This document shows, in pieces, positions 1,395 through 22,192 of a stretch of 22,224 nt of DNA. The notes below the pieces were generated by a model, which was given only the letters and a program-made list of their open reading frames with translations, made no database searches and was not told where the DNA came from. Position 1 is the stretch's first letter, and each line of letters starts with the position of its first letter. The stretch is from a virus. Where the stretch lies: the IMG/VR virus record IMGVR_UViG_3300017963_000788, positions 1-22,224 of that record; one strand, 5' to 3'. The translations under genes and the position numbers were made by a program.

Positions 1395-1410
1395 GATATA
1401 TAAAAGAAAA
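1395..1410 (+). promoter_or_regulatory. Putative late promoter, GATATATAAAA motif
   Basis: GATATATAAAAGAAAA matches the recurrent consensus with one substitution and ends 9 nt before the ATG at 1420. An in-frame ATG at 1384 lies upstream of this motif. Every other copy sits between the preceding gene and the start codon, so the motif argues for 1420 as the start. It would drive the small unknown gene and the small terminase. Confidence 0.55.
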
Positions 1411-1419
1411 GAGACTATT

Positions 1420-1713
1420 ATGATAACAGTTAAACCTCCAAATGGGATGACAAACCAAGAATACGTTGACTCACTATCAACCACCGAAAAATCGATATAT
1501 GATAATCTCAATGATGATGCAAACGTTAATGTGACGCTCACTGAGGATAAGATCTTCGCCCATCAACACACTAAGGTGGAGGTGAACATGTTCGTTGACA
1601 ATAAGATAAAGGTTAAGTATTACAAGAGGTTCCCAAGACATAACTATCTTGAGTACAACATACCTATCGAACAGTGGGAAACAGCAATTAACAATTACTT
1701 TAAAGAAGGATAA
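1420..1713 (+). CDS. Hypothetical protein upstream of small terminase
   Basis: I do not recognise this 97-residue protein. I chose the ATG at 1420 over the in-frame ATG at 1384 because the promoter-like motif at 1395-1410 lies between them and because the product then begins MITVKPPNGMT. The early ExxDSLSTTEKSIYDNL segment looks helical. The middle (about residues 35-75) alternates charged and aromatic residues in a way typical of beta strands (VEVNMFVDNKIKVKYYKRF), and the end is helical. There is no signal peptide or membrane segment. It stops 2 nt before the small terminase start, so the two are very probably co-transcribed. A role in packaging, for example DNA recognition with the terminase, is possible but not shown by the sequence. 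Confidence 0.7.
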   Translation: MITVKPPNGMTNQEYVDSLSTTEKSIYDNLNDDANVNVTLTEDKIFAHQHTKVEVNMFVDNKIKVKYYKRFPRHNYLEYNIPIEQWETAINNYFKEG

Positions 1714-1715
1714 AA

Positions 1716-2066
1716 ATGGATCTTAAAAAACAAATAGTGGCGTTTTTGGAAAAGAACACCGAATACGAATGGGTTGATGATTCTCTCATTGATGAATATG
1801 TTGCTAATGTTGATTTTGCAAAGCAGGCAAGAGAACTCATTAACCAGGAAGGTATAGTTGGTACTGAAATAAGGAAGACTTCTGGTAAGAATCCACAAGA
1901 ATATGAGATTCAAAAGAAGAATCCTGCGTTTGATGTTTATAATAAGGCTCTAGACAATATGACAAAGATAGTCACGAAGTTAGGGATTAGCCCTTCAGAT
2001 AGAATAAAACTAAAGATACTTGCCATAGAACAAGAGGACAAAGATGACTTATCGGATTTCGATTAA
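1716..2066 (+). CDS. Terminase small subunit, P27 family-like
   Basis: The small terminase recognises the packaging site and presents DNA to the large subunit. This 116-residue protein has an N-terminal part (1-60) rich in acidic and hydrophobic residues that looks like a helical DNA-binding domain. Its C-terminal half, NPAFDVYNKALDNMTKIVTK followed by LGISPSDRIKLKIL, carries the pattern of P27-type small terminases: NPA...Y..A...M..., then LG.(S/T)P..R.KL. The tail is very acidic (EQEDKDDLSDFD), as is common for the part that contacts the large subunit. It begins 2 nt after the preceding gene and is followed by a terminator-like hairpin before the large terminase. Length and position fit the family. 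The assignment rests on motif pattern only. Confidence 0.75.
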   Translation: MDLKKQIVAFLEKNTEYEWVDDSLIDEYVANVDFAKQARELINQEGIVGTEIRKTSGKNPQEYEIQKKNPAFDVYNKALDNMTKIVTKLGISPSDRIKLKILAIEQEDKDDLSDFD

Positions 2067-2113
2067 TGTTTGTTAAAATAGAAACTAAAGATAATTGAAA
2101 ATCTATAATATTA

Positions 2114-2175
2114 GAACTAGCAAATCAAAGATATTTTACAATTGTAACTGGGGTCTCGGTGTTCTATGCTAGTTC
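2114..2175 (+). promoter_or_regulatory. Long-range inverted repeat pairing with the terminator loop (possible attenuator/antiterminator)
   Basis: GAACTAGCA at 2114-2122 is the exact reverse complement of TGCTAGTTC at 2167-2175, which lies inside the 17-nt loop of the terminator hairpin at 2150-2188. In RNA the upstream segment could form either a loop pseudoknot or a competing stem that weakens the terminator. Between the two arms sits a separate palindrome, TTACAATTGTAA. Read-through here would control how much transcript reaches the GIY-YIG and large-terminase genes. The pairing is visible in the sequence; the regulatory role is inference. Confidence 0.45.
2136..2147. repeat. Perfect 12-bp palindrome TTACAATTGTAA
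   Basis: TTACAATTGTAA is a perfect 12-bp palindrome just upstream of the terminator hairpin. It could be an operator for a dimeric regulator or, in RNA, a small hairpin between the two arms of the long-range pairing. Palindromes of this kind also arise by chance in AT-rich DNA. Confidence 0.4.
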
Positions 2176-2195
2176 ATACTGAGGCCCCTTTTTTT
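2150..2195 (+). terminator. Intrinsic terminator after small terminase
   Basis: GGGGTCTCGGT (2150-2160) pairs with ACTGAGGCCCC (2178-2188) as an 11-bp stem in which two positions are G-U wobbles, and seven T residues follow (2189-2195). The loop is 17 nt. The stem is far more GC-rich than its surroundings. An ATG at 2166 lies in the loop and is an unlikely start. The ATG at 2202 begins 6 nt after the T-run, so the hairpin also occupies the leader of the GIY-YIG gene. Confidence 0.8.
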
Positions 2196-2201
2196 ACGAC
2201 T

Positions 2202-2810
2202 ATGAAAGAAACAATTTACGTCTATTGCACAACAAATCAAATCAATGGAATGAAGTACGTTGGTATGTCTAATCTTAAAAACCCAAGATATTTTGGTGGT
2301 GGTCCAAAACTTCATGATGACATTAGAAAATATGGGAAAAATAACTTTACAAGATCCATATTAATGAAGTTTGATAACAGAAAGGATGCTCATGAGTATG
2401 AGGGTTTATACATAGAATTACTTAATACAATGTGGCCATTTGGTTATAATACTGATAAAACGGGTGGAGCTGTTGGTACATCAGGTTTAAAACCTTGGAA
2501 TAAGAATAAGACTTATAAAATGAAAAAACAATTTAGTGAAATAACTAAAAAAAGGATTAGTGAATCAGGAAAAGGTAGAGAACCTTGGAATAAAGGAAAG
2601 AGATTATCTAAAGAATATAGAAAAAAACTAAGTGAATCACATAAAGGAAAATCAAATAATTGGGAAGGTAGAAAACATTCTGAAGAATCAAAGAAAAAGA
2701 TGAGTGAAGCCCATAAGGGTATAAAACTTTCTGAAGAAACAAAGAAAAAGCTTAGTGAAGCTAGTAAAAAATATTGGGCAAAAAGAAAAGCAATGAATGA
2801 AGCGGCTTAA
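2202..2810 (+). CDS. GIY-YIG homing-type endonuclease with NUMOD3 repeats
   Basis: This free-standing homing-type nuclease is inserted between the two terminase genes. From the ATG at 2202 the 202-residue product opens with a GIY-YIG core: IYVYCTTNQINGMKYVGMS supplies the two signature strands, HDDIRKYGKNNFTR the following helix and strand, and HEYEGLYIELL the conserved glutamate. The C-terminal half is a run of NUMOD3-like DNA-binding repeats (KPWNKNK, REPWNKGKRLS, WEGRKHSEESKKKM, GIKLSEETKKKL), extremely rich in Lys and Ser. The longer frame from 2166 would start inside the terminator loop, so I prefer 2202. The gene is strikingly A-rich compared with the flanking structural genes, which fits acquisition by homing. 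Its last codons overlap the large terminase start by 14 nt in another frame. Confidence 0.9.
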   Translation: MKETIYVYCTTNQINGMKYVGMSNLKNPRYFGGGPKLHDDIRKYGKNNFTRSILMKFDNRKDAHEYEGLYIELLNTMWPFGYNTDKTGGAVGTSGLKPWNKNKTYKMKKQFSEITKKRISESGKGREPWNKGKRLSKEYRKKLSESHKGKSNNWEGRKHSEESKKKMSEAHKGIKLSEETKKKLSEASKKYWAKRKAMNEAA

Positions 2811-4506
2811 GAAAGCAGAATATATCGATTATTGTTGGAAAGTAGGAAACCAATACGCTAAAGATATTAAGTCAGGTAAAATAGTTGCTAATCGTTGGAT
2901 TAAAGCAGCAATAGATCGTTATGAGAAGGATTTAAAAAATAAAAAGTATCACTTTAAAAAAGAAGAAGTGAGAAAGGTGTTTGGATTCTTCTCGGTATTG
3001 AATGTTGATCAAAAGGGAAATCAATTCAAGTTGATGCCCTACCAGTGCTTCATACTTATGAACCTATTTGGTTTCTACTATAAGAATAGTGAAAGGAGAA
3101 AGTACAACTATGCTCTTATTTTTGTTAGTCGGAAAAACGGGAAAACAGGATTCATAGCAGGATTACAACTTTATTTCATGATCTCAGTTCCTGATCCATT
3201 ATGTCTTAGTGTTGGTCATTCACCAGATGCTAGGTCTCATACAGCTAGAGCAGCTGCCACATTTGTGTACCAGACTCCAGAACTTATAAAAAGACTTCAA
3301 CCACAAGGACCACAATCATCCAAGAATAAGGTAGTCTTCAAGAAGGAGGGAAAACCTGGAGTTCTACAATCAGTAGTATCAACAGCAGAGCGATTGGATG
3401 GATTTAGTACTAGTAGTGCTGTTTTGGACGAGATACATGCGTATAATGATGACTCTTTATTCAATGTAATTAAATCATCAACAGGAACTAGATTTTCCAA
3501 CAATGAGAATCCAATGGTTACACTTATTAGTACTGCTGGTTTTAAGCCTGTTGGTTTTTGTGCTGATATGGTAACAATAGGTAAAAGAGTATTGGATGGA
3601 CAGGCAGAAGATGATTCTTTTTTCTATATGATTTATACATTGGATGATGAGGATAATGGTAAATGGGAAGATGATTCAAAATGGATAAAAGCAAATCCAG
3701 CATTAGGTGAAATACTTGATATTGAGTACTTAAAATCAGAGTTTACACAAGCAAAGAACTTAACAACTCAATTACCAAACTTCCTAACAAAACACCTTAA
3801 CATATTTGTAAACGAAACAAGTGAATGGATAAGTAGAGGAGTTTACTCAAAGGTATGTTATAATGCTGATCCAGCTCTTTATAAGGATCTTACTGGATTT
3901 ATTGGACTTGACCTTTCAGCAACAAGAGATTTAACTTCTTTAGTAGTTGTATTTTATGATCAAGATAAAGACTTCTATTATGTCATACCCTATTTTTGGA
4001 GAGCAAAGAATGAGGATAAAAGGTTTAGAAAAGGAGGACAAGATCTTAAGGAATGGATTGATAAGGGTTACATAACAGAAAGTTCTAAAAAGACTATTGA
4101 TTACAACCAAGTATTTGAAAAGATAAAGGAACTAAACCAACAATTTTACATTGGTAGTATTACTTTTGACCGTTACCTATCACAATTGGTACTTCCACAA
4201 GTTGAAGGCTTAAGTCGTTTGGATGGTAGTCCAATTAACATAGAACCATTTGCACAAACTGCTTATAAATATAGCTTTCCAATGACTACTTTTGAAAAAT
4301 CAATATATGATGGTAATTGCTCGTTAACTGATAATCCAGTATTTCAATGGAATATTGATAATGTAGTTTTGTATTATGATACCAATGGAAATATAAAACC
4401 CATGAAGAATAAAGGTAAGGACGCGATTGATGGTATAGTTAGTGCTGCCATGGCATTTAATGGTGCATTGAGTTGGTATAACTTAACTGAGGAATCTAGT
4501 ACCTAA
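2797..4506 (+). CDS. terL: Terminase large subunit (HK97-type ATPase-nuclease)
   Basis: This is the motor that translocates DNA into the prohead and cuts the concatemer. The 569-residue length is typical of the family. The ATPase domain shows Walker A as SRKNGKT (111-117) and Walker B as AVLDEIH (208-214, with D211 and E212). STAG at about 246-249 fits the coupling motif that follows. The RNase H-fold nuclease domain shows acidic residues in the expected order: D372 in GLDLSATRD, D458 in ITFDRY, and D542/D545 in DAIDG near the C-terminus. The ATG at 2797 overlaps the end of the GIY-YIG gene, so translation may be coupled to it. No copy of the promoter-like motif precedes it, so transcription must enter from upstream past the hairpin at 2150-2195 or from a promoter I cannot see. 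Confidence 0.95.
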   Translation: MKRLKKAEYIDYCWKVGNQYAKDIKSGKIVANRWIKAAIDRYEKDLKNKKYHFKKEEVRKVFGFFSVLNVDQKGNQFKLMPYQCFILMNLFGFYYKNSERRKYNYALIFVSRKNGKTGFIAGLQLYFMISVPDPLCLSVGHSPDARSHTARAAATFVYQTPELIKRLQPQGPQSSKNKVVFKKEGKPGVLQSVVSTAERLDGFSTSSAVLDEIHAYNDDSLFNVIKSSTGTRFSNNENPMVTLISTAGFKPVGFCADMVTIGKRVLDGQAEDDSFFYMIYTLDDEDNGKWEDDSKWIKANPALGEILDIEYLKSEFTQAKNLTTQLPNFLTKHLNIFVNETSEWISRGVYSKVCYNADPALYKDLTGFIGLDLSATRDLTSLVVVFYDQDKDFYYVIPYFWRAKNEDKRFRKGGQDLKEWIDKGYITESSKKTIDYNQVFEKIKELNQQFYIGSITFDRYLSQLVLPQVEGLSRLDGSPINIEPFAQTAYKYSFPMTTFEKSIYDGNCSLTDNPVFQWNIDNVVLYYDTNGNIKPMKNKGKDAIDGIVSAAMAFNGALSWYNLTEESST

Positions 4507-4522
4507 AAGCTTTTAAAGAGTA

Positions 4523-4540
4523 GATATATATAAAAAATAA
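4523..4540 (+). promoter_or_regulatory. Putative late promoter before the portal gene
   Basis: GATATATATAAAAAATAA matches the recurrent consensus with an extra TA step and ends 15 nt before the portal ATG. It lies in the 49-nt gap after the large terminase stop, preceded by the short palindrome AAAAGCTTTT. It would start a unit of its own for the portal gene. Confidence 0.55.
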
Positions 4541-4555
4541 CATAAGAAAAGAATT

Positions 4556-5812
4556 ATGTCAATATGGAATGACCTCTTAGAATCATTGAAGGTAAGCGTG
4601 GCACCCACAACAGACGCTAAATACCTTATAGAGAATCTCGACAATAAAGCTAATAGATTTGAAAAGAAAGATGCCGCAAATGTTAGCACTATTTATACTT
4701 GTCTTGAAATAAAATCTGACACTATAGCAAGGCTTCCCTTAGATGTTAAACAGGAATCTCCTGGAGGCGACACTACTCTAAAGGATGACCCACTTCATTA
4801 CCTTCTTCACTTCCAGCCTAATAACTATACCAATGCTTTCCAGTTTTGGTGGACTATTGAGTTTTATAGGAACCTAAGAGGTAATAGCTTTGCTAGAATA
4901 TTTAGAGATGCACGAGGAAGACCCGAGTCTTTAAAGATAGTGTATCCAGATGATGTTGTGGGGTATAGCCTATATAACAATCAACTTTACTATTCTTATC
5001 ACGAGAGAAAGCTAGATGGGTCCTTAAAGGAACAACCAACTAAGGTTAATAGTACTGAAATGCTACACTTTACTTTTGGTAGTATTGATGGTATCTTTGG
5101 TATTGATCCAATCACAAAGCTTATGTCGGAGCTTGGTATTAAGGTAAAATCTAGTAAGACACTTGAAAACCTTTATACAAATAATGCTCTTAATAAAGCA
5201 TTGGTACTTCCTAATGTTAATAACGAAAGTACTAAAAAGCAAATTGAGGAATTCAACAAAACAAGTGGTGTTGACCAAACAGGTAAGTTAAGACAACTTC
5301 CATTTGGATCAGAACTTGTTGATATGAGTCTTGATCTTAATGCTGTTCAATTCATTGATTCTCAAAAGTTCACAGTAACTCAAATTGCTGCACTTTACAG
5401 AATACCTGCTCATATGTTAGGTATATTGGAACAAACTAAGTTCTCATCTGTGGAAGCAATGACACTTGATTTTAAATCCAATTCTATATCACCAATAGCA
5501 AAACTCTATAAAAGAGAATTAGAATCCAAGTTGTTAACACAACAGGAGATACTTGATGGTAAGGTAATTGAATTCAATACAAATGCATTGATAGAAACTG
5601 ATCTTGATACTAAGAATAAGATCATCACTGACCAAGTAATGAAAGGACTTATTTCTCCTAACTATGCTGCTAGCATTTATGGTTATCCTCAGTATGATGC
5701 TGGTGAAGATCATTGGATGCCATCGAGCTCAATGTTTGCTGAGATAAGACACAAATCTGATACTGAGAAGCTTGATCAATTGATTAATCCTCCAGAGGAA
5801 GATACCGAGTAA
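4556..5812 (+). CDS. Portal protein, HK97 family
   Basis: The portal is the dodecameric ring at the unique capsid vertex through which DNA enters and leaves and to which the tail joins. At 418 residues it matches HK97-type portals. Family features are visible: an N-terminal segment with NVSTIYTCLEIKSDTIARLP (about residues 42-61), DPLHYLLHFQPNNYTNAFQFW (78-98), RNLRGNSFARIFRD, and the central ALYRIPAHMLG block (about 281-291) followed by the EAMTLDFKSNSISPIAKLYKRELESKLL stem helix region. The C-terminus is acidic and probably flexible. The gene lies alone between two promoter-like motifs, directly after the large terminase and before the prohead protease, the canonical order. Confidence 0.93.
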   Translation: MSIWNDLLESLKVSVAPTTDAKYLIENLDNKANRFEKKDAANVSTIYTCLEIKSDTIARLPLDVKQESPGGDTTLKDDPLHYLLHFQPNNYTNAFQFWWTIEFYRNLRGNSFARIFRDARGRPESLKIVYPDDVVGYSLYNNQLYYSYHERKLDGSLKEQPTKVNSTEMLHFTFGSIDGIFGIDPITKLMSELGIKVKSSKTLENLYTNNALNKALVLPNVNNESTKKQIEEFNKTSGVDQTGKLRQLPFGSELVDMSLDLNAVQFIDSQKFTVTQIAALYRIPAHMLGILEQTKFSSVEAMTLDFKSNSISPIAKLYKRELESKLLTQQEILDGKVIEFNTNALIETDLDTKNKIITDQVMKGLISPNYAASIYGYPQYDAGEDHWMPSSSMFAEIRHKSDTEKLDQLINPPEEDTE

Positions 5813-5830
5813 AAAACGGATACACTATAA

Positions 5831-5845
5831 GATATATAAAATAAA
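5831..5845 (+). promoter_or_regulatory. Putative late promoter before protease-capsid pair
   Basis: GATATATAAAATAAA is an exact copy of the consensus, continuing as TAAAT, and ends 13 nt before the protease ATG. It would drive protease and major capsid protein together, up to the terminator at 7683-7709. Confidence 0.6.
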
Positions 5846-5858
5846 TAAATAGCTAACT

Positions 5859-6497
5859 ATGGAAAATAGAAGTTATAACCCCGAAGCATTAGAACTTAGA
5901 GCCATCACAGATGATGATGGTAAAAGGTATATCCAAGGATATGCTGCTGTTTTTAACAGTAGATCTAAGTTACTATCTGACTTTGGACAGCTATTCTATG
6001 AAGAACTTGAACCTGGCGCATTCACCAATGCTCTTAATGATGACGGCTTAAACGTCGTATTTGTTGCGAATCACAATCGTGAACAATTACTGGCGAGATC
6101 CGCAAGCGGCACATTGGAACTAAAGGAGGATGACAGAGGTTTATATTTCAGGGCGGACGTCCCTGATACACAATTAGGTAATGACGTTTACACGTTAGTT
6201 GAGAGAGGTGATCTCTTTGAAAACTCTTTTGCTTTTAACTTGGATTCTGAAGGTTACAGATGGACTGAAACTGATGAGGAGATTCCTTTGAGAATCATCT
6301 CAAACGTAAGAAAACTTATGGATGTTTCAGTAGTTACTGATGGAGCTTACGGAGAAACTGTCGTTGAGGCCAGAGGTCTTAAGGAGTTTGTTGATTCCAA
6401 GAACGAAGTTGAGGAAGAAGTAGAAGAAACCACTGACGATACTGATGATGTTAAACTAAGAGCCAAATTGATACAACTTAAAAATAAAAACTATTAA
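5859..6497 (+). CDS. Prohead maturation protease, HK97 (U35) family
   Basis: This serine protease is packaged in the prohead, where it cleaves the scaffold-like N-terminal domain of the capsid protein and then itself. The 212-residue protein carries the family signature: IQGYAAVFNSRS (25-36), EELEPGAFTNAL (48-59), then FVANHN (68-73) with the presumed catalytic histidine H72, and ENSFAF (121-126) with the presumed nucleophile S123. LMDVSVVTDGAYGETVVEAR follows, as in homologues. The C-terminal stretch after about residue 175 is highly acidic (EVEEEVEETTDDTDD), a common feature of the part removed by self-cleavage or used for capsid targeting. One base separates its stop from the capsid gene, so the two are co-expressed. 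Confidence 0.93.
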   Translation: MENRSYNPEALELRAITDDDGKRYIQGYAAVFNSRSKLLSDFGQLFYEELEPGAFTNALNDDGLNVVFVANHNREQLLARSASGTLELKEDDRGLYFRADVPDTQLGNDVYTLVERGDLFENSFAFNLDSEGYRWTETDEEIPLRIISNVRKLMDVSVVTDGAYGETVVEARGLKEFVDSKNEVEEEVEETTDDTDDVKLRAKLIQLKNKNY

Positions 6498-6498
6498 A

Positions 6499-7632
6499 AT
6501 GAAAAAGTTAAATGAATTAATGCAATCTCGTGCCGCTATTAACGATCAGATTAATGACATTATAGCAGCTGATGAGCTTACTGATGAACAAAGAGCTCAA
6601 GTTACTGAGCTAGAAGGTAAGGTTGATTCCTTAAAGGAAGAAATCGAATTCCTAAAGCGTCAGGAAGAAAGAAATGCTGAAATGGCATCCGTTAACATCG
6701 TTGAGAGCAACACTAAAGATGACGAAACTGGTTCAAACCTAGTTCGTTCACTTAATGAGCTTTTCACAACTGGTCACATTACAAGTGATTACAGAGGTAA
6801 GGAAGGATTCGTAATCCCTTCTACTATCTTTAGAGCAGACCCTATCCTAACAACCACTAACACTGGTATCATCAACAAAGTTGTTGACCCTACTGTTAGC
6901 ATTAAGAGATCTTATGGAGAGCAATTCCTAAGAGACCTTGGTGTTCGTTTCTACGAAGGTGTTACTGGTAACCTTGTTCTTCCTTCAATGGCGGAAACAA
7001 CTGCTACCCTTACTGCTGAGTCTGGAACTGCAACTTCTGCAAGCCAAGCTCCTACTTCAAATACTCTTTCTGCAAAGAGAATTGACGTAGTTCAAGGATA
7101 TAACAGAGAATTCCTTGCTCAAACTTCTGTTTATGATAGCTTACTACAAGACCTTGTAGATTCTATTGGTGTACAGATGGTTTACACATTCTTCGATAAC
7201 ATGGCAACTGATGCTGTTGATGCATCTGTAGCAGGTACCACTGCTGGTGTTACTTACTCAGACGTTCTTGGTCTTGAGAAGAACCTTGCTGATGTAATGG
7301 GAGATATTAAGTTCGTAGGAACTCCTGCTTTCAAGCAGTATCTTAAGAATCTTAATGCTTCTTCTGCAAACATCAAGTTTGCTTGGGGAGATGATAACAC
7401 TCTATTAGGTCTTCCAGCAATGGCAGCTAATGGTGTTAATGCTAATCAATTATGGTTAGGTGACTGGAGCAAGTCTGCACAGGCAATGTTCGGTGACATG
7501 GAAATCATAGTTGACCCTTACTCTGTGAAGAAATCAGGTAAAGTAGAGGTATACGCAGTTCAGCTTGCTGACTCTGGTACTTCAAACTACCGTCACTTCT
7601 CATGGATTACTGATGGATCAATCGGTGTATAA
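6499..7632 (+). CDS. Major capsid protein, HK97 fold
   Basis: This is the 377-residue shell protein. Residues 1-65 form a charged helical segment with heptad-like spacing (LTDEQRAQVTELEGKVDSL, EEIEFLKRQEER), matching the delta domain that serves as an internal scaffold and is removed by the protease. The mature part probably begins somewhere around residues 75-105, near the polar linker SNTKDDETGSN and the start of the ordered fold. Family landmarks include EGFVIPSTIFRADPIL, the E-loop region around VTGNLVLPSMAETTATLTAE, and the P-domain segment LLGLPAMAANGVNANQLWLGD followed by AQAMFGDMEIIVDPYS. Codon use looks more optimised (more GTT, CTT, TCT) than in the tail genes, fitting high expression. 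It is co-transcribed with the protease and closed by the terminator downstream. Confidence 0.95.
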   Translation: MKKLNELMQSRAAINDQINDIIAADELTDEQRAQVTELEGKVDSLKEEIEFLKRQEERNAEMASVNIVESNTKDDETGSNLVRSLNELFTTGHITSDYRGKEGFVIPSTIFRADPILTTTNTGIINKVVDPTVSIKRSYGEQFLRDLGVRFYEGVTGNLVLPSMAETTATLTAESGTATSASQAPTSNTLSAKRIDVVQGYNREFLAQTSVYDSLLQDLVDSIGVQMVYTFFDNMATDAVDASVAGTTAGVTYSDVLGLEKNLADVMGDIKFVGTPAFKQYLKNLNASSANIKFAWGDDNTLLGLPAMAANGVNANQLWLGDWSKSAQAMFGDMEIIVDPYSVKKSGKVEVYAVQLADSGTSNYRHFSWITDGSIGV

Positions 7633-7682
7633 TCACTGAAATCTTTATATTGTTTTGAGATTATAGTCGTAACTCAAACCCA

Positions 7683-7709
7683 GGGAGCTCGTTCTGAGCT
7701 CCCTTTTTT
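7683..7709 (+). terminator. Strong intrinsic terminator after major capsid gene
   Basis: GGGAGCTC (7683-7690) and GAGCTCCC (7696-7703) form a perfect 8-bp GC-rich stem with a 5-nt loop (GTTCT), followed by six T residues. It lies 50 nt after the capsid stop codon. A weaker inverted repeat (TTTGAG...CTCAAA) sits just upstream. An open frame reaching back into this terminator exists for the next gene, but its ATG at 7771 lies beyond it. Confidence 0.92.
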
Positions 7710-7739
7710 GTTGCGTTCTGCTTCCAACCATGAAGCGTT

Positions 7740-7756
7740 GATATATATAAAAATAA
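7740..7756 (+). promoter_or_regulatory. Putative late promoter before head-tail connector genes
   Basis: GATATATATAAAAATAA begins 30 nt after the end of the terminator T-run and ends 14 nt before the ATG at 7771. The terminator should stop upstream transcription, so a promoter is needed here, and this motif is the obvious candidate. This is the best contextual evidence that the motif family consists of promoters. Confidence 0.65.
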
Positions 7757-7770
7757 GCAAAAGTAGAACG

Positions 7771-8334
7771 ATGAATTACTACAATAATTACGAAATAACT
7801 ACAGCCAGCACCAAGTTAATCTACCACGTTACATTAACTGAAGCCAAAGAACAATTAGGATTAGTGTTCTCACAAGATTATGATGATAATTACATCAATA
7901 GGTTAATTAAAGCAGCCCACCTTGAATGTGAAGCATACATTCAAAAGGATATTGCAAGAACCAGGAATGTAGCCCAAATATGGGACTTTAGCGGTGATTT
8001 TATCAAGATAGAAAAAGGTCACTTCAATGAGTTTGAATCCATTAAGGACACCAATGACACTGAGAGAACAACGGTCTCAACAACCTTAAGGACATATCCT
8101 GAATGGTTTGAGATTGAGCTAGCATCACCAGTTACATCTGATCCACTAACGGTGACCTACATCACAGGATTCGATGATGGAGCATGCCCAGAGTTGATAA
8201 AGCAAGCCATACTTATGAAGATAGGTGCTTACTATGATTTTGAACGTAACGGTTATGTTGGTGGTTCCTATAAGGATAACAAAACTGCTGAGAGGTTGCT
8301 CAATAATTACATGAGTGTTGCACAACTTCACTAA
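7771..8334 (+). CDS. Head-tail connector, HK97 gp6-like
   Basis: This adaptor protein forms a ring beneath the portal. I chose the ATG at 7771 because the frame upstream runs through the promoter-like motif and into the terminator. The resulting 187-residue product has the gp6-like layout: LTEAKEQLGLVFSQDYDDNYI followed by INRLIKAAHLECEAYIQKDI, the helical block that opens this family, then a beta-rich middle (residues about 65-135) containing TVTYITGFDD, then a C-terminal helical block with PELIKQAILMKIGAYYDFER and RLLNNYM. It heads a tightly packed block of four head-tail joining genes. Position, directly after the capsid gene, and fold pattern agree. Confidence 0.85.
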   Translation: MNYYNNYEITTASTKLIYHVTLTEAKEQLGLVFSQDYDDNYINRLIKAAHLECEAYIQKDIARTRNVAQIWDFSGDFIKIEKGHFNEFESIKDTNDTERTTVSTTLRTYPEWFEIELASPVTSDPLTVTYITGFDDGACPELIKQAILMKIGAYYDFERNGYVGGSYKDNKTAERLLNNYMSVAQLH

Positions 8335-8348
8335 AATAAGATGATGAT

Positions 8349-9516: not shown

Positions 9517-9517
9517 A

Positions 9518-9534
9518 AAAGGATTTAATCCTTT
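9518..9534. repeat. Small hairpin after tail-completion gene
   Basis: AAAGGATTTAATCCTTT forms a 7-bp stem with a 3-nt loop, starting in the A-run just after the stop codon. On the + strand no T-run follows, so it is not a standard forward intrinsic terminator. Read on the - strand it is followed by six T residues. It may mark a transcript end or simply be a stability element. Confidence 0.45.
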
Positions 9535-9535
9535 A

Positions 9536-9550
9536 GATATATAAATAAAT
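9536..9550 (+). promoter_or_regulatory. Putative late promoter before tail tube gene
   Basis: GATATATAAATAAAT is one of the closest copies to the T4-like TATAAATA form. It is followed by a second A/T-rich block (AATAAAATAAAC, 9551-9562) and ends 25 nt before the ATG at 9576, the longest spacing among the copies. If the second block is counted, the spacing falls to 13 nt. Confidence 0.55.
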
Positions 9551-9575
9551 AATAAAATAAACTAACGATAGAGAC

Positions 9576-9983
9576 ATGGCAAATGAATTATTATCCAAAA
9601 CTATGGTTATCTCGCTTGATGGCAATCCAATAGCAAGAACTACAGGTTTTAGCTTCAACGTTGATAAAGAAACAGTAGACGTAACGTCTTTCGATTCAAC
9701 ATCTAGTTGGAAGGAATTCCTTGTAGACTTAAAAGAGGCCGAGATCTCGTTTGACGGTCTTGTGTCAAGAGATAGCTCAAGTTCTACCAATGATTATGAA
9801 ACATTGTTAACTAACATTATGACTTCAGATGCTTCTGTTGCATTCTTACTGGATGACTCAGCAGCTCCAACTGATATTACTGGTGCTGGTTATCTAACTA
9901 ACGTTTCACTTACTGGAAGTTTAGGAGACAAGCAGACTTATAGCGGTACGCTTAAGCCTACTGGTCCAATATCCATAGCGTAA
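9576..9983 (+). CDS. Major tail (tube) protein
   Basis: The 135-residue protein has the pattern of TP901-1-type major tail proteins: an early strand pair with VISLDGNPIARTTGFSFNVD, then ETVDVTSFDSTSSWKEFL (about residues 33-50), a hallmark in which TSFDS is followed by WKEF, then EISFDGLVSRDSS, and near the end LTNVSLTGSLGDKQTYSGTL, the closing strands. These proteins form stacked hexameric rings. The gene is monocistronic in layout: a promoter-like motif precedes it and a T8 run and long hairpin follow, fitting strong separate expression. The codons appear more optimised at the 3' half. Confidence 0.87.
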   Translation: MANELLSKTMVISLDGNPIARTTGFSFNVDKETVDVTSFDSTSSWKEFLVDLKEAEISFDGLVSRDSSSSTNDYETLLTNIMTSDASVAFLLDDSAAPTDITGAGYLTNVSLTGSLGDKQTYSGTLKPTGPISIA

Positions 9984-10011
9984 AACTGACGACCTTTTTT
10001 TTCATAATAAA

Positions 10012-10044: not shown

Positions 10045-10059
10045 AACTAAACGTATATT

Positions 10060-10823: not shown

Positions 10824-10826
10824 AGA

Positions 10827-10842
10827 GATATATAAAATAAAA
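10827..10842 (+). promoter_or_regulatory. Putative late promoter before tape measure gene
   Basis: GATATATAAAATAAAA is an exact match to the 15-nt consensus and ends 10 nt before the ATG at 10853. It begins 3 nt after the chaperone stop. Confidence 0.58.
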
Positions 10843-10852
10843 TCCTTGATAA

Positions 10853-12550
10853 ATGGCCAAGAATAAGATAATGACGGATCTTGCGGTTCGTATCTCAACA
10901 CAAACAGCAGAATTAAAAAAGGGACTTAGAAAAGCATCAGGTCAACTTAAGACCTTTGGAATGAAGGCTAAGACTGCCAGTAAAGAATTCTCAGCTGGTT
11001 TTAAAGGTGCTTTTACAGGTGTTGCCGGTATGGCTAATCCTATGATGGCCCAATTAACTTCAATATTGGGTGGCGCTACCAGTGGAATGAAAGCACTAAC
11101 AAAAGGAACTAAACTATGGAAGGTTGCCATAGCATCTACTGGTGTAGGATTGCTGGTGATAGCCTTAGGAGCATTGGTCACCTGGCTTAACAATACAAAA
11201 GAGGGTATGCTTGTAATGAGTAGAGCCACTGAAGTTGTTAAAGCAGTTATAGGTGTTGTTCTTGATCGTATAGCCAAGTTTGGTGGTGCTATAGTTAAAC
11301 TATTTAGTGGTGATTTTCAGGGTGCCTGGGATGATGCTAAGGGTGCCGTAGCAGGTGTTGGTGATCAAATAGTGGATGTTGCTAAGAAAGCTGATCAAAT
11401 AGCCAAGGATGAGGATGCTAATACTAAAAAGGAGATAGCCAATAAGAAGAAGATTGCCAAGCTTCTTGAAGAAAATGGTAACTTAAGATTAAAATCAAGA
11501 GATATTGATAAGTACACTGCTGATGAACGTCAGATGTTTGCAGCACAAGAACTTAAGAACTTAAGAGAGGTCAATAAAATGAAGACTGAAACTCTTGATG
11601 ATGAGATAGATCTTCTTGAAAGACGTCAAGCCTTGGGTGAGAATACACTTGAGGATGATATGGAGCTTGCTAATCTTCAACAAAAAAGAGCCCAAGAAGT
11701 AAAGAATATGCTCTTACAAGAGAAAGAGCTAATGATGCTTGGCCAAGATATTAGAAGACAAAAGGAAGCACAAGAAAAGGCTGAGATTAAGATTGCTGAA
11801 GCAAAACAAAAGCAACTTGCTGCCGATCAAAAGATGGCTGAAAAACTCTTTGGTAAAAAGGTTACAAAGACTGAACCAAAGATGGATAAAGATCTTCTTG
11901 ATAAGAGGATGCAAGCGCTTGGTGATGCAGCAGAAAAAGAATTAGAGATTAATCAAAACAAGCTTGATAGGATAGCAGAACAAGAGGCTCAAGCTGAAGC
12001 AGAAAGGCAACAAAGACAACAAATGACCTTTGATTTCATCAATGGTATGATGGATGCTATGGCTAATATACAAAGAGCCAATATGAATAAGGAGTTGGCG
12101 GCGGCTGGTGATAATGAGAAGAAGAAAGAGGAGATTAAGAAAAAGTACGCTAAGAAGGAAAAGAAAATGGCAATAATGAGGACACTTATATCAGGTGCTG
12201 AAGGTGTTGCTAAAACTATAGCAACATTAGGTATGCCACTTGCTATTCCTTTTATTGCATTGGCTGCAGCAACTACAGCAGCTCAAATAGCAGCAATAGC
12301 CTCACAAAACTTTGCAATGGGTGGTGTTGTTGATAAAGGATTCTCATTAGCCACAGTAGGAGAAAGAGGTAAGGAGACAGTAGCATTACCTAGAGGATCT
12401 AGAGTTGTATCTCATGCTGATACAATGAAAGCACTTGGTCAATCTAATGGAAAGGCTGTTAAAGTAATGGTTGAGGATGTATTAATCAGAGGAGAAGATC
12501 TTAGAATAGTGCTATCTGAAGCAAATAGAAGAAAACTAAATACACTATAA
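10853..12550 (+). CDS. Tape measure protein
   Basis: This protein spans the tail lumen, sets tail length and is ejected with the DNA. At 565 residues it is short for the class; at about 1.5 angstrom per helical residue it implies a tail under roughly 90 nm. Residues 1-85 are helical and basic. A hydrophobic segment follows at about 89-112 (LWKVAIASTGVGLLVIALGA), then a long, highly charged helical region (about 155-445) rich in Glu, Lys, Gln and Ala and predicted coiled coil, then a second hydrophobic stretch (about 448-483). The C-terminus has FAMGGVVDKGFSLATVGERG and VALPRGSRVVSHADT, a GG..x.G...VGE.G.E...LP.GS.V motif common to tape measures. It follows the chaperone genes, as expected, and ends 3 nt before the next gene. 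Confidence 0.92.
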   Translation: MAKNKIMTDLAVRISTQTAELKKGLRKASGQLKTFGMKAKTASKEFSAGFKGAFTGVAGMANPMMAQLTSILGGATSGMKALTKGTKLWKVAIASTGVGLLVIALGALVTWLNNTKEGMLVMSRATEVVKAVIGVVLDRIAKFGGAIVKLFSGDFQGAWDDAKGAVAGVGDQIVDVAKKADQIAKDEDANTKKEIANKKKIAKLLEENGNLRLKSRDIDKYTADERQMFAAQELKNLREVNKMKTETLDDEIDLLERRQALGENTLEDDMELANLQQKRAQEVKNMLLQEKELMMLGQDIRRQKEAQEKAEIKIAEAKQKQLAADQKMAEKLFGKKVTKTEPKMDKDLLDKRMQALGDAAEKELEINQNKLDRIAEQEAQAEAERQQRQQMTFDFINGMMDAMANIQRANMNKELAAAGDNEKKKEEIKKKYAKKEKKMAIMRTLISGAEGVAKTIATLGMPLAIPFIALAAATTAAQIAAIASQNFAMGGVVDKGFSLATVGERGKETVALPRGSRVVSHADTMKALGQSNGKAVKVMVEDVLIRGEDLRIVLSEANRRKLNTL

Positions 12551-12553
12551 AAT

Positions 12554-14563: not shown

Positions 14564-14605
14564 TTAATGAGCTGGTGATCCTTCCCAATACTCGCTGGAG
14601 GATGG

Positions 14606-14620
14606 GATATATAAAATAAA
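14606..14620 (+). promoter_or_regulatory. Putative late promoter before fibre gene
   Basis: GATATATAAAATAAA is an exact consensus copy and ends 21 nt before the fibre ATG. Just upstream, ATCCTTC (14578-14584) and GGAGGAT (14597-14603) can form a 7-bp stem with a 12-nt loop that ends 2 nt before the motif. Confidence 0.58.
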
Positions 14621-14641
14621 ATAACCGGTCATTTCATCATT

Positions 14642-17600: not shown

Positions 17601-19972
17601 CAGATAATGCTCTGGATATATCAACAAATCAGTTCAATAATGATCAGGAGTTCAGCTCAATAGATACTTACCAAGGAATACAGGATGCCTCAATTCTATT
17701 GGGATTATCATCTGGAACTTACGATCCTATTCAGGATGCAAGTATAATAGCAAATGAGGAGTCAATAACAAGGATAGATGCATATAATGCCATTCAGGAT
17801 GCAAGCATAGAGCTAGCAGCTCAAAGCGGTACATATGATCCTATTCAGGATGCGAGCATAATAGCTCTTGAGGGAGATATTACACGAATAGATGCGTATA
17901 ATGCAATCCAAGATGCAAGCATAGAGCTAGCAGCTCAAAGCGGTACATATGATCCAATACAGGATGCATCAATAATTACTAATGAAGGTAATATATCAAC
18001 AAACACCTCAAACATAGCCCAGCTTGATGCTTCAGTTGTTAGAATAGATGGTTACAATGCGATACAGGATTCATCCATAAATCAAGCATTACAATCAGGT
18101 GCTTACGATCCAATTCAGGACGCAAGCATAATAGCAAATGAAGCTGAAATAGCTCAGCTTGATGCTTCAATCATCAGAATAGATGCAACTAATGATACTC
18201 AAGATAATGAGATAGCTACCCTTGATTCATCAATAGTGAGAATAGATGCTTATAATGCTATACAAGATGCTTCAATATCTGATAATGATGCACAAATAGC
18301 TCAGCTTGATGCTTCAGTTGTGAGAATAGATGGAGAATTAACAACTCTTGATAATTACAATGCTATTCAAGATTCTGCAATAGTTAGTAACAGCAATGCA
18401 ATTACTACAATTAATGCCTATCAGGCAATTCAAGATGTCTCAATAGCAAATGCAGGAGTAACACTTGAATATGTTGATGGTTCACTTGGAGCAAGGGATG
18501 TATCAATAGCTAATAATGCCGCTTCAATAGTTAATATTGATTCAAGCATATCTGATCTTGATACTCTTACTCAGGGCCACACAATAGATATTGCAAACCT
18601 AGACTCAAGCGTTGCTGCTCTTGATGTTCTAACGCAAGTTCATACTGCTGACATAGCACAATTGGATGCTTCAATTATTAGAATTGACGCAACTAATGAT
18701 ACTCAAGATAATGAGATAGCTACCCTTGATTCATCAATAGTGAGAATAGATGCTTACAATGCGATACAGGATGCCAGCATAATATCAGAGCTAATTGGAT
18801 TAACTGATGTATCAATTATATCGCCAGTGACTGATGATATACTTGCTTACAATTCAATTAATGCTGCATGGGAAAATAGCACAACAATAGTTGATGCTTG
18901 CATTGGATTATTGGTGGATGTTTCCGTTGCTGATCCTTCTTCTTATGATTTAATATCATATAATGAAACAAGCGCAGTTTGGGAAAGTGGAAAGATTGAT
19001 ACAAGAAGCTTTACAGCTGATACTAGAGATCCATTTGCAATACTTAATGGTATTATGTTAGATCAACCTAAAGTTGATGTGACTTCAAATGGTACAACTG
19101 TTACTCTTAATCTTTTCGATAATGCAGGAAGAGATACAATTAGAATTGTATATGATAAGGATGTTGTATATTATGATGTAATTAATGATGGTTCTTTAGC
19201 ACTTACTGCTGGTACCGATGCGGCACCACAGATTAACTACGTATATGTTCCATATAACAGTGCAACATTAGAAGCTAGTACTGGAGATTGGCCAGATGTA
19301 GAATACGCAGCTGTTGCAACAGTTCTTGTTCAAAGTGCAGCAAGTGTTCAAACTCAAGGTCCATATAAAGTTCATGCTTGGACAGATCATGCTAAGAGTG
19401 GTAAAGATGTTGGTCACATACAAGATCTAAACTACTGGATTAGATACCAACCAGCAACATGGAGAAATGGTGTAGACTTAACTACTACTATTACTGTATT
19501 GGGAGGTCTTGATAGAGTTGATTTCTCAACAACATTAGGTAATTGTTTACAACTTCATAACCATGCATTCCCAGTATTTGATACAAGTACTTTAGATAGT
19601 AGTATCTTTGTTCCTAACTATCCAAGTGATAATTATAGACCTTTCACTTCTGTAGAAACTGCAATGCAAGTAGATTCTGGAGGTAATGCAATAGCCAATA
19701 ACAAGTGGGTTAATGTGATTCTTTGGGGAGTTGTGAATGAGGATAATGATGATTGTAAGCTAATGTTGAACTTACCAGAAGCATTCCATAGTAGTGAAGC
19801 TAACGCAAAAGCAGATGCTGAACATTACTCAGTATATAGTATACCTGAAGACTTCATAGGTACTGCATTTTACATTGCTAAAATCATATTTAAGTACACT
19901 ACTAATAATTGGGAACTTGTTGAAACTGAAGATCTAAGGAAGTTCGGAAAAGAATACTTACAATTGAACTAA
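14642..19972 (+). CDS. Giant repetitive tail fibre, probable receptor-binding protein
   Basis: The 1776-residue fibre is dominated by variants of RIDAYNAIQDASI; I count about 36 QD[A/S/V/T]S elements. They fall in two blocks (about residues 35-560 and 810-1390). In IAQLDASVIRID the hydrophobics are spaced 3-4-3, fitting a trimeric coiled coil. Interspersed are about eight short modules of the form (V/I/L)xYDxSxxxWxN (near residues 321, 369, 414, 778, 834, 880, 1397, 1435), often preceded by LDDVSI. Residues about 565-765 form a non-repetitive beta-rich domain (VVRVRNNQGFLIDDGSVVKI, SGATGNRPTIELA, GTVTVAHATQGKIFV) found in many fibres. From about 1460 to the end there is a unique domain, the likely receptor-binding tip (LQLHNHAFPVFDTSTL, IPEDFIGTAFYIAKI). 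The stop overlaps the next start by one base. Confidence 0.9.
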   Translation: MSTGNTYQNNVTGSVTLTTPVKGTIISAYTTIIGTGTGDAFDRLDNYNAIQDSSILINTINIAQHDASIIRIDDYRAIQDVSIAALGGEEVTTKTYVDGSLGQRDASLFVLFTENDIQDSSILYNLEQTIRIDAYNAIQDASVLAEITRIDIYASVQDASILLNTQNIAQLDASVIRIDSYNAIQDASVLAEITRIDNYQAIQDASTLAEVNRIDTYNSIQDASILVGLQSSQYDPIQDVSIAQHDASIVRIDQYTAIQDASIFIGLQASNYDPIQDVSIAQLDASVSRIDAYNIIQDASILAKAALLSELDDVSIVSISDDNVLVYDASDSLWKNAVDIDASFYNVVDASEYFWILADTSVSNPLDRQGFLYDASWGLWRNWDIVDVSIYGVVDASEYFWILQDTSIIDASNGDLLVWDSSFGKWFNSRNIEVIDEYTAIQDTSIAQALQSGTYDPIQDASIAQLETDVTRIDGYNAIQDSSINQALQSGAYDPIQDASIAQLDASVIRIDGYNTIQDSSIEQALQSGAYDPIQDASIIANEDNIAQIDASVVRIDAFLLNPTFQNDINLDGSIVFDASGNIVNVGHIDFWNSNGDPDHLEGRVFYDSTEKALTYMNDQTDMRLQVGQEMVVRVRNNQGFLIDDGSVVKISGATGNRPTIELANSDIHTPTAISENHILGLATHDIANNTDGFVTVFGLVSNQNTSAFSEGDILYVDASVAGNLTNDAPPAPYDKIKIGTVTVAHATQGKIFVSPKEPVHFSDISGLDDSSTAVANGALWVYDDSSMYWYTSDQLPTRVSALEAYNTIQDASINAANLLGGLDDVSIVTPSQNHIILYDASDSIWENGIGFNTDSYQVVEASTYFWILQDTSVSNKQNDDVLVYDSSWGYWINQNISDFLNDQASTQDASIVILRADIAQLDASVIRIDGYNAIQDASVLSEFGRIDTYNAIQDSSIDTNASNISTNTSDISNIESEQNVQNIAISDNALDISTNQFNNDQEFSSIDTYQGIQDASILLGLSSGTYDPIQDASIIANEESITRIDAYNAIQDASIELAAQSGTYDPIQDASIIALEGDITRIDAYNAIQDASIELAAQSGTYDPIQDASIITNEGNISTNTSNIAQLDASVVRIDGYNAIQDSSINQALQSGAYDPIQDASIIANEAEIAQLDASIIRIDATNDTQDNEIATLDSSIVRIDAYNAIQDASISDNDAQIAQLDASVVRIDGELTTLDNYNAIQDSAIVSNSNAITTINAYQAIQDVSIANAGVTLEYVDGSLGARDVSIANNAASIVNIDSSISDLDTLTQGHTIDIANLDSSVAALDVLTQVHTADIAQLDASIIRIDATNDTQDNEIATLDSSIVRIDAYNAIQDASIISELIGLTDVSIISPVTDDILAYNSINAAWENSTTIVDACIGLLVDVSVADPSSYDLISYNETSAVWESGKIDTRSFTADTRDPFAILNGIMLDQPKVDVTSNGTTVTLNLFDNAGRDTIRIVYDKDVVYYDVINDGSLALTAGTDAAPQINYVYVPYNSATLEASTGDWPDVEYAAVATVLVQSAASVQTQGPYKVHAWTDHAKSGKDVGHIQDLNYWIRYQPATWRNGVDLTTTITVLGGLDRVDFSTTLGNCLQLHNHAFPVFDTSTLDSSIFVPNYPSDNYRPFTSVETAMQVDSGGNAIANNKWVNVILWGVVNEDNDDCKLMLNLPEAFHSSEANAKADAEHYSVYSIPEDFIGTAFYIAKIIFKYTTNNWELVETEDLRKFGKEYLQLN
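16061..16119 (+). repeat. 59-nt exact repeat, copy 1
   Basis: Positions 16061-16119 are identical to 18047-18105, starting GATGGTTACAATGCGATACA. The two copies are about 2 kb apart in the fibre gene. Confidence 0.9.
17798..17841 (+). repeat. 44-nt exact repeat, copy 1
   Basis: Positions 17798-17841 are identical to 17912-17955, starting GATGCAAGCATAGAGCTAGC. The offset of 114 nt equals 38 codons, one expanded protein repeat, and marks a local tandem duplication. Confidence 0.9.
17912..17955 (+). repeat. 44-nt exact repeat, copy 2
   Basis: This is the second copy of 17798-17841, in the same reading frame. Confidence 0.9.
18047..18105 (+). repeat. 59-nt exact repeat, copy 2
   Basis: This is the second copy of 16061-16119, in the same reading frame. 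Confidence 0.9.
18185..18252 (+). repeat. 68-nt exact repeat, copy 1
   Basis: Positions 18185-18252 are identical to 18689-18756, starting GCAACTAATGATACTCAAGA. The repeat encodes ATNDTQDNEIATLDSSIVRI, with further codons in the same frame. The offset of 504 nt is 168 codons. Confidence 0.9.
18689..18756 (+). repeat. 68-nt exact repeat, copy 2
   Basis: This is the second copy of 18185-18252, in the same reading frame. Recombination between the copies would remove or add 168 residues without breaking the frame. Confidence 0.9.
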
Positions 19973-20688
19973 TGGCATATAAACAAAATACACTTTTAAG
20001 AGATGCTGATGGCAACGTGTTGCGATTTGATGGAGGGCTTGGCGTGTCACAACGAGCAACTTTTATACCTGATGATCCTAGCGTGTTCATGTCATACACC
20101 GATAGTTTGTTAGATACAGCTGATGGATACACATGGGTTTATAGGGATAATGGAGCAGAGCTCGGTACTAACAGCATCTCCTTTGCTGGTGGTTCCATGT
20201 ATAACACACCAGCCCAAGCTCTTCAGGAGATTCTAAAATCACCATGCACCACAGCATTTTGGTTCAAAACTAACTTCACTGATTCTCCGAATAGGTTTCT
20301 GTTGCATCTGGGCTCAACTGTTACAGGTGACACACAAATAGCAGTAAACTACAGAACCGGTCCGCAGATTGATTTGTGGTGGTACGATACTGGTTCAGCA
20401 GTTGATAGCCATAATTACATAAACACATCAGATGATGAGTGGCACCATTTAGCTTTTACTGGTGATAGTGGAACGTTTAGCGTGTATTATGATGGTGTTT
20501 TTCAATTCAGTGATAGCTTTTCTGCTGCTAACTTTGATTCACAGATTGAGAGAATTGCGTATGGAGATAACGTGACAGGAACGGATGTTGGCATAACAGC
20601 AGAATACGATGACATAATATACTACAACAGGATACTAACGGCACAGGAGGTTGAGGACCTCTATTATTTTAGAAAAAGACAGTCATAA
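19972..20688 (+). CDS. LamG-like lectin protein, one domain
   Basis: The 238-residue protein starts MAYKQNTLLRDADGNVLRFD and then has a concanavalin A/LamG-type beta-sandwich domain of about residues 55-235. Supporting motifs are TTAFWFKTNF (about 93-102), DEWHHLAFTGDSGTFSVYYDG (about 155-175, the W-H-H-(L/V)-(A)-(F/Y)...YxDG signature) and the C-terminal EYDDIIYYNRILTAQEVEDL, which is the standard end of LamG_3-like domains. There is no signal peptide. It overlaps the fibre stop by one base (TAATG), so it is translationally coupled to it, and it is likely a virion adhesin that binds cell-surface glycans. It could be an accessory fibre or a tip attached to the large fibre. Confidence 0.8.
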   Translation: MAYKQNTLLRDADGNVLRFDGGLGVSQRATFIPDDPSVFMSYTDSLLDTADGYTWVYRDNGAELGTNSISFAGGSMYNTPAQALQEILKSPCTTAFWFKTNFTDSPNRFLLHLGSTVTGDTQIAVNYRTGPQIDLWWYDTGSAVDSHNYINTSDDEWHHLAFTGDSGTFSVYYDGVFQFSDSFSAANFDSQIERIAYGDNVTGTDVGITAEYDDIIYYNRILTAQEVEDLYYFRKRQS

Positions 20689-20690
20689 AT

Positions 20691-22178
20691 ATGGGAAGCA
20701 AACCAACATACATGATTTATAATGGAAAGGTAATGGAATGGAATGGTTCCATTATCAGAACTGCTGGTGATGGTAAGGTTCCATTAGATGGATTGGTAGC
20801 ATATTGGGACTTTGAGGATGGTTCTTTAGCATCAACTCTTGGTAAGGATATATCATTCACCCTTGAAGGAGATTTTGATGTTCAAGATGGTATGAGATTA
20901 TGGACAGATGGTGACAATGGAGATTCATTAAGAAGATATAGGCATCCAATAGATCCATACCATTTTTTTACTAATGATAATTCAACCGGAAGAATATACA
21001 TCAATGATCCAAGCATAGGTCAATACCTAGAATCTCCTGAAGAATTCACACTGTCGTTATGGTTTAAACCCAGCACATTTCAAAGTGGCGATAGACAGGT
21101 TATATTTAAGTTTGATAATGGACAAACAGTTGATACATGGTATTCTCTTTTTAATCAATTCATAGAGCAAGAATATATTCTTGAGGCAAGAATTGATGGT
21201 GGTGACACGACATCACTTGATATTCCATGGCCAAACAAACCTTACACGTGGCAGCACATAGTTGCCCATTATAATGGATCACATTTAAGCATATTCATTA
21301 ATGATGTGAGTGTTGGTGCTATGCCATGGACTAACTATATGCCAGATGGTTCAACAACCCAACTTGGTTTGGGTTGCACACCAACAAACTGGAAGGTGGA
21401 AGAAACTATAGAAGGTAACTTTGATAAGGTTTACTATTATGGAAGAGCACTATCCAGAGATGAAATATCAGATCTATATTACAGTGTGAATGTTTACGAT
21501 TACCCAACATATTCCACAGATTCTTTATATGCAAGATGGGATTTTCAGAACACCATGGATTCTAGTATCGGAAGAACCATTACATTAATAACAACTGATA
21601 CGACTTATGAAAGTGGTGTTGTTGGTGATTCATTGAAATCAGACTCACCAACAGGATTTACATACACATTAGATTCTAGCATTGTAACATTATTAAGAGG
21701 CACTGATGACTACGCAATATCCTTATGGTATAAAGGAAATGATGCATCAGTTAATCTTGTAAAACATGCATTTCAATTTGCTAACACAAATGATCTGGGT
21801 CCATATGATAGGATCAATATTTTATACAATACTGCAACTGATGGTATTTCATACCAAATAGGTTCATCAATTACTCTTGAAGGTGCTAGTGATACAGTAT
21901 ATGTGAATAACACAAATAATTGGCATCATGTAATCTTATCAAGATCTTCTGGGGATGTTAGTTTTTGGGTTGATGGTTCATTAGCTTCCATTAATGAGTT
22001 TGTTGGACCATTGTCATCATTTGCATCAAGAATTACAGTTGCAAGTAGAAGTGAAGTCCCAACATACGATATAGATTGTAATGTGGACCTTTTATACATA
22101 TACAATAGAAGCTTAACCTCTCAGGATGTTAGTACGTTATGGAATGAAGGAATGGGAAGATATACGACACCATATTAA
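20691..22178 (+). CDS. LamG-like lectin protein, two domains
   Basis: The 495-residue protein begins 2 nt after the previous gene. A short leader MGSKPTYMIYNGKVMEWNGS resembles the leader of the neighbour in style (a display of gene-product-like NG.V..W.G text). Two LamG-type domains follow. The first (about 35-265) includes EFTLSLWFKPSTFQSGDRQV, TWQHIVAHYNGSHLSIFIND and FDKVYYYGRALSRDEISDLY. The second (about 280-490) includes DYAISLWYKGND, NWHHVILSRSSGDVSFWVDG and VDLLYIYNRSLTSQDVSTLW. Both carry the W.H......(G)..S..(I/V)(D/N)(G/D) core and the closing YNR.L...(D/E)(I/V)..L element. Probable glycan-binding virion adhesin, related by duplication to the protein upstream. Confidence 0.8.
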   Translation: MGSKPTYMIYNGKVMEWNGSIIRTAGDGKVPLDGLVAYWDFEDGSLASTLGKDISFTLEGDFDVQDGMRLWTDGDNGDSLRRYRHPIDPYHFFTNDNSTGRIYINDPSIGQYLESPEEFTLSLWFKPSTFQSGDRQVIFKFDNGQTVDTWYSLFNQFIEQEYILEARIDGGDTTSLDIPWPNKPYTWQHIVAHYNGSHLSIFINDVSVGAMPWTNYMPDGSTTQLGLGCTPTNWKVEETIEGNFDKVYYYGRALSRDEISDLYYSVNVYDYPTYSTDSLYARWDFQNTMDSSIGRTITLITTDTTYESGVVGDSLKSDSPTGFTYTLDSSIVTLLRGTDDYAISLWYKGNDASVNLVKHAFQFANTNDLGPYDRINILYNTATDGISYQIGSSITLEGASDTVYVNNTNNWHHVILSRSSGDVSFWVDGSLASINEFVGPLSSFASRITVASRSEVPTYDIDCNVDLLYIYNRSLTSQDVSTLWNEGMGRYTTPY

Positions 22179-22192
22179 ATATATAAAATAAA
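22178..22192 (+). promoter_or_regulatory. Putative late promoter before next gene
   Basis: AATATATAAAATAAA matches the consensus except for its first base and begins in the stop codon of the lectin gene. It ends 9 nt before the ATG at 22202. Confidence 0.55.

Follow-up and report, generated by a model that had tools for sequence, protein, structure and literature searches.

The phage sigma factor gp55 and the late promoters of bacteriophage T4 are well known, and the switch that they serve is best known from large T4-like phages. T4 late promoters carry a short −10-type box and function without a −35 element (PMC2988020; PMC7892883). Several large phages carry gp55-like genes, and in the T4-like phage Aeh1 the late box has changed along with gp55, to CTAAATA (PMC1524935). 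Here, we analyze a 22,224-base fragment of a phage genome (IMG/VR virus record IMGVR_UViG_3300017963_000788, positions 1–22,224; hereafter the window) in which a recurrent box, RRATAWATA, stands before blocks of structural genes. The box is very likely a phage promoter, and the fuller statement, that it is the late promoter of a Bacteroidota siphophage and is read by a gp55-type sigma, is probable.

How does this locus compare with the described systems? As in T4 and other Tevenvirinae, the box is short, ATAAATA-like and of the −10 type, has no −35 element and precedes structural genes, and members of the phage family to which the window belongs encode a gp55-type sigma that contains region 2. 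Unlike the T4 box, the family box starts with a purine rather than T and is mostly ATATATA rather than ATAAATA; its bearers are ~30-kb HK97-type siphophages of Bacteroidota, whereas T4 is a ~169-kb myophage; and the family sigma has 113–119 amino acids (aa) against 185 in T4 gp55. Moreover, no sliding clamp or gp33-type coactivator was recognized in the proteins of family member G003 that were scanned, including 7 further proteins compared with PHROGs. The family box does not show the exact T4 octamer TATAAATA, but this octamer varies among gp55 phages, and for this reason we file the family box as a variant that would work in a like manner and not as a T4 promoter. Aeh1 offers a parallel in that its late box diverges with its gp55, although it is a T4-like myophage with a different box. 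Lak phages, Tenacibaculum phage PTm1 and phage PAU possess a homologous gp55, and PAU and PTm1 a box-type element near genes, but their genomes span 219–552 kb and the box of PAU and PTm1 is ATACATA.

In the window, the element was followed as a 15-mer on the + strand, and all eight copies listed in a preliminary description made from the sequence alone were found at their places. Copies at 5831..5845, 10827..10841 and 14606..14620 are exact and precede, respectively, the head maturation protease gene (5859), where the copy also serves the abutting major capsid gene, the tape-measure gene (10853) and a large tail-fibre-like gene (14642–19972). One mismatch is seen at 1395..1409, where the box GATATATA and its A-rich tail precede a gene at 1420, and at 22178..22192, where the box AATATATA overlaps the stop codon of the previous gene and precedes a truncated gene at 22202. 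The copy at 4523..4537, before the portal gene (4556), has two mismatches, and three occur both at 7740..7754, which lies 36 nucleotides (nt) past a terminator and before the head–tail adaptor gene (7771), and at 9536..9550, before the major tail protein gene (9576). Measured in order along the window, the gaps between the end of the 15-mer and the ATG are 10, 18, 13, 16, 25, 11, 21 and 9 nt, the same 9–25 nt as first described. When up to three mismatches are allowed, the two strands together hold 15 matches against 4.8 ± 2.3 in shuffled sequence, and none of 100 shuffles reached 15.

The shorter pattern RATATATA occurs exactly 8 times in the 22,224 bases (both strands), an ordinary number against 6.2 expected, and the evidence is therefore its placement: all eight lie on the + strand just upstream of an ATG. 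Likewise, the nine matches to RRATAWATA all fall in the 1,160 noncoding bases that make up 5% of the window, with none in coding sequence and none on the − strand. This bears out the earlier remark that no full copy lies inside a gene, with the caveat that the copy at 1395 would do so if the gene at 1420 truly begins at the ATG at 1384. A further caveat is that the gaps before the genes at 2202, 10060 and 8349 carry no copy. The motif was picked from these same window sites, so the relatives of the phage constitute the independent test.

Across the family, the ATAWATA box is found in 129 of 239 upstream regions; dinucleotide shuffles give 42.2 ± 4.8, and the opposite strand has 35. Relatives of 27–74% capsid identity keep it before the same genes: contig L008 (74%) and many contigs at 27–40% have it before the portal, protease, major tail protein and other genes. 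The portal box is shared with L008, L010, L011, L013, L015 and L019, the protease box with L008, L010–L013 and L015, and the major tail box with L008, L013, L014 and L019; the head–tail adaptor box is in the same place in L008 (5545). Among portal or terminase relatives outside the family, the box was counted in 4 of 121 regions against 4.6 expected. The host of the window phage appears to belong to the Bacteroidota, because the sole match of its tape measure protein among cultured phages is a Bacteroides phage, the four best genome matches of the family terminase, which are proviral relatives, are Bacteroidota (Sunxiuqinia, Gaoshiqia and two Prolixibacteraceae), and Shine–Dalgarno sequences are absent from most window genes. 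A first scan of genome contigs with the portal returned no match. The motif showed no excess over its reversed pattern in 61 Bacteroidota host genomes, on which ground a host-derived signal was rejected.

The family data further resolve the 15-mer into two signals, a box RRATAWATA and an TAAAATAA leader. Alignment of 131 family sites on the box reveals a conserved RRATAWATA with purines at −2 and −1, followed by A-rich DNA; the first position of the box is a purine in 92% of sites, and the core reads ATATATA in 63% and ATAAATA in 37%. No column 5′ of the box is conserved and no −35 element is apparent, so the likeness to T4 late promoters that was noted at the outset stands, with a purine and ATAWATA as the core. 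The start of the box floats relative to the ATG of family genes (median 27 nt, quartiles 25–34, range 19–60), whereas in the relatives TAAAATAA begins 16–18 nt before the ATG whether the box is present or absent; box-less genes are also enriched for the leader (AAAATAA in 41 of 99 against 11.7). In the window, the position of the A-rich element varies more, at about 17–24 nt before the ATG. The AAAATAAA half thus belongs to a separate leader that keeps its place relative to the start codon, which leaves RRATAWATA as the promoter core. Bacteroidota lack Shine–Dalgarno sequences and have A-rich leaders at −14 to −11 instead, where adenines stimulate translation in Flavobacterium (PMC6847099), and TAAAATAA fits these translation signals as a translation-leader element.

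What protein could recognize such a box? A Sigma70_r2 search of 19 records gave four weak matches, and two of these, together with a third relative found by profile, are gp55-type late sigma genes (PHROG_234, E 1e-17 in G003, 5e-14 in G007 and 3e-6 in G011). A family profile built from 23 gp55-like proteins finds T4 gp55 in the PDB with E 1.4e-21. The AlphaFold2 model of a gp55-like protein (predicted local distance difference test score, pLDDT, 84.6) has the gp55–RNA polymerase open complex as its best fold match: Foldseek ranks 7d7c_F first, and its Z is 13.2 against 11.0 for the next chain. The modeled protein has a sigma region 2 fold most like that of gp55. In the portal tree, G003, G007 and G011 are split between two separate clades. 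Most short gp55-like proteins (L111–L137) end in a hydrophobic tail (for example IYTI, IYSI, IYNL or MHNI) that is possibly a clamp- or RNA polymerase-binding peptide.

A complementary scan of viral contigs, for which the gp55-like protein was the only query, recovered 35 loci, several of them on contigs of 125–465 kb that are far larger than the family contigs. With family members and near-duplicates left out, the box is present in 83 of 214 upstream regions of these gp55-fetched contigs against 28.2 ± 4.4 in shuffles. The same method applied to T4 as a positive control places TATAAATA in 9 of 18 regions against 0.5. In phage PAU (L149) and Tenacibaculum phage PTm1 (L150), both of which bear gp55, ATACATA is found in 9 of 23 regions against 0.7 and in 9 of 32 against 1.5, respectively, and is probably their late-promoter box, which indicates that the box shifts with the gp55 lineage. 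Taken with the gp55-type genes of three relatives, the missing −35 element and the lack of a host-type signal, the enrichment in gp55-fetched contigs supports the idea of a late promoter, and it suggests, by way of the relatives, that the sigma-like factor which the preliminary description considered possible outside the window may indeed be of the gp55 type.

We infer promoter activity, late timing, the start sites and a gp55-type sigma of the window phage's own, and the steps would be as follows. RRATAWATA would be the −10-type recognition box of late promoters, and the host core RNA polymerase would be redirected to it by a small phage-encoded gp55-type sigma that consists of region 2 only and recognizes the −10 box only. 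Transcription would start ~12 nt past the start of ATAWATA, following the T4 register in which the box occupies −13 to −6 (PMC1524935), with predicted start sites in the window at ~1408, ~4536, ~5844, ~7753, ~9549, ~10840, ~14619 and ~22191. Each separately initiated structural gene block would thereby receive a leader of 11–27 nt, which is in line with the median of 24 nt in F. psychrophilum (PMC9723704), and the A-rich TAAAATAA behind the box would act in this translation leader.

Four observations weigh against this model. The gp55-fetched contigs also have a high opposite-strand count (50 of 214), which we ascribe to their AT-rich composition and to divergent genes that share intergenic DNA. 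A second, strong intrinsic terminator in the window (2150..2195, + strand, −22.2 kcal/mol, z −5.1), upstream of a GIY-YIG gene and the large terminase gene, has no box between it and the terminase, the next box being that at 4523, and either read-through or another promoter must therefore be invoked. No sigma gene match was obtained in the window itself, a 22-kb fragment. Finally, the larger box-bearing contigs G004, G008, G013, G014 and G017 gave no gp55 in a motif search or in a sensitive six-frame search whose gp55 profile came from the gp55-fetched loci, and something else must therefore read the box there. Nine further small proteins had no Pfam sigma match.

This last observation leads to an alternative that we regard as unlikely yet worth weighing, namely that the box is a phage late promoter but that the phage of the window uses another reader, either a host alternative sigma or host RNA polymerase with an unrecognized phage activator. 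The five contigs speak for it, above all G017, which has a 219-bp terminal repeat, is apparently complete and carries a serine integrase. Most of the contigs that lack gp55 may be incomplete, however, and box-bearing members of two clades do encode gp55, the box also occurs in gp55-fetched contigs from outside the family, and the host genomes show no motif excess.

That the motif is a translation-initiation or 5′-leader element and not a promoter is improbable. It always precedes an ATG, its TAAAATAA half keeps its distance from the start codon regardless of the box, and such A-rich leaders are what Bacteroidota use, but the ATAWATA part floats while the A-rich part keeps its place, the box tracks gp55, and a copy in the near-identical contig L009 (at 955) has no start codon behind it.

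Still less credence is due to an ordinary host sigmaA promoter or a chance pattern of AT-rich DNA. The region is AT-rich and the RATATATA count is close to expectation, yet location and strand are non-random, and the family data refute chance. The Bacteroidota sigmaA −7 box, TAnnTTTG (PMC9723704), occurs in no intergenic region of the window, and a host sigmaA promoter was rejected accordingly; E. coli-type promoters were rejected as well, with 66 matches against 80.5 in shuffles, that is, fewer. An archaeal TATA box was dropped because the proviral relatives reside in Bacteroidota and a start 25–30 nt downstream would not fit box–ATG distances of 19–27 nt, which are too short.

Most remote of all is a reader of the phage single-subunit (T7-like) RNA polymerase kind, for although parts of some of these genomes are missing and G004, G016 and G017 share a 383–446 aa protein with motifs that look polymerase-like by eye, PF00940 was unmatched in 19 records (controls gave no match either) and conservation extends over only about 9 bp, without the long conserved sequence of T7-type promoters. 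In the shared protein (L088:10864–12012; L076:2079–3239; L086:4787–6124), DLKSSQ and SVHDS resemble motifs A and C of family A or T7-like polymerases; a profile search of the PDB found no match to it, and Pfam gave only a weak DUF1374.

A sister clade provides a contrast within the family. Contigs L039, L040, L041, L043 and L054 are largely without the box and have CGTC-containing elements instead (9/34 against 0.2, and 2/239 in the rest), with ACGTCTTTATAATnAAA or CGTCTATATAG as the replacement box upstream of portal and tail genes in L054/L039 and L040/L041/L043. The portal tree places them in one group, and they therefore count as one evolutionary contrast. Two members of the CGTC clade, G009 and G016, encode the other two weakly matching Sigma70_r2 proteins, which are small and resemble extracytoplasmic function (ECF) sigmas, at 18 and 15 bits and thus below the Pfam cut-off of 24; the structure model of the ECF-like protein is poor (pLDDT 60), and an ECF-like scan returned only the two known contigs. 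The clade may carry an ECF-like sigma. The CGTC box and the weak Sigma70_r2 matches resemble the system of PMC9723704, a likeness that concerns the sister clade and not the window. We tentatively raise the possibility that a single small family of siphophages exchanges its late-transcription specificity module as a unit: most clades would pair a gp55-type sigma with RATAWATA, one clade an ECF-type sigma with ACGTCTTTATAAT, and temperate members that have RATAWATA and no gp55 would use a third, unrecognized reader. Other boxes were also seen: GCGTATCTATATATT in the distant relative L016, in the upstream regions at 6206 and 12841 before the portal and a tail gene, and GCGATATATTA at the portal genes of the provirus L099/L101.

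Within the literature searched, two things appear to be new: a family of ~30-kb Bacteroidota siphophages that combines a gp55-type sigma with a purine-first ATAWATA box, and a sister clade in which the box differs and the sigma class perhaps does too. If the model is true, the gp55 module travels far outside T4-like phages, in altered form, into ~30-kb phages, and a minimal gp55 of 113–119 aa becomes available for study. It would also aid late-gene annotation and supply candidate orthogonal promoters for Bacteroidota, whose promoters and ribosome-binding signals are atypical. The covariation of box and sigma lineage is a natural data set on the specificity of sigma region 2.

The terminator that the preliminary description had seen ahead of the copy at 7740 is real: an intrinsic terminator after the major capsid gene (7682..7704, + strand), with a hairpin of −17.0 kcal/mol (z −5.0) followed by a T run. 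Many relatives across the family have a terminator hairpin at this place, and a box directly behind it occurs in the window and in L008 (5545), with only the A-rich leader in L010, L011, L013 and L015. The L009 copy at 955 matches 14 of 15 positions and lies partly within the end of a small gene. A strong terminator follows within ~70 nt with no start codon between them (L009:955–1036); this segment is a candidate noncoding RNA of ~65 nt, or else a promoter test case. An Rfam search of the window returned no match.

The window carries the structural genes of a tailed phage of the HK97 type, all on the + strand, with small and large terminase, portal, head protease, major capsid, adaptor, closure, neck, tail terminator, major tail, tape measure and tail fibre genes. 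The gene at 1420 encodes an unknown protein and is followed by the small terminase gene, a GIY-YIG homing endonuclease gene (start ~2202) and the large terminase gene (2797..4506; PHROG 9, E 4e-125), which has no box directly upstream. Then come the portal protein (4556..5812; PHROG 12, E 3e-70), the head maturation protease (5859..6497; PHROG 80, E 1.5e-48) and the major capsid protein (6499..7632; PHROG 10, E 1e-15), whose gene abuts that of the protease and has no box of its own. Further downstream lie the head–tail adaptor (7771..8334; PHROG 442, E 1e-14), the major tail protein (9576..9983; PHROG 1407, E 4e-17) and the tail tape measure protein (10853..12550; PHROG 9483, E 3e-7). The terminase subunit genes, separated in the window by the GIY-YIG gene, are only 96 bases apart in L008. 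The tail-fibre-like protein, with 1,776 aa, contains many degenerate repeats of the YNAIQDASI type.

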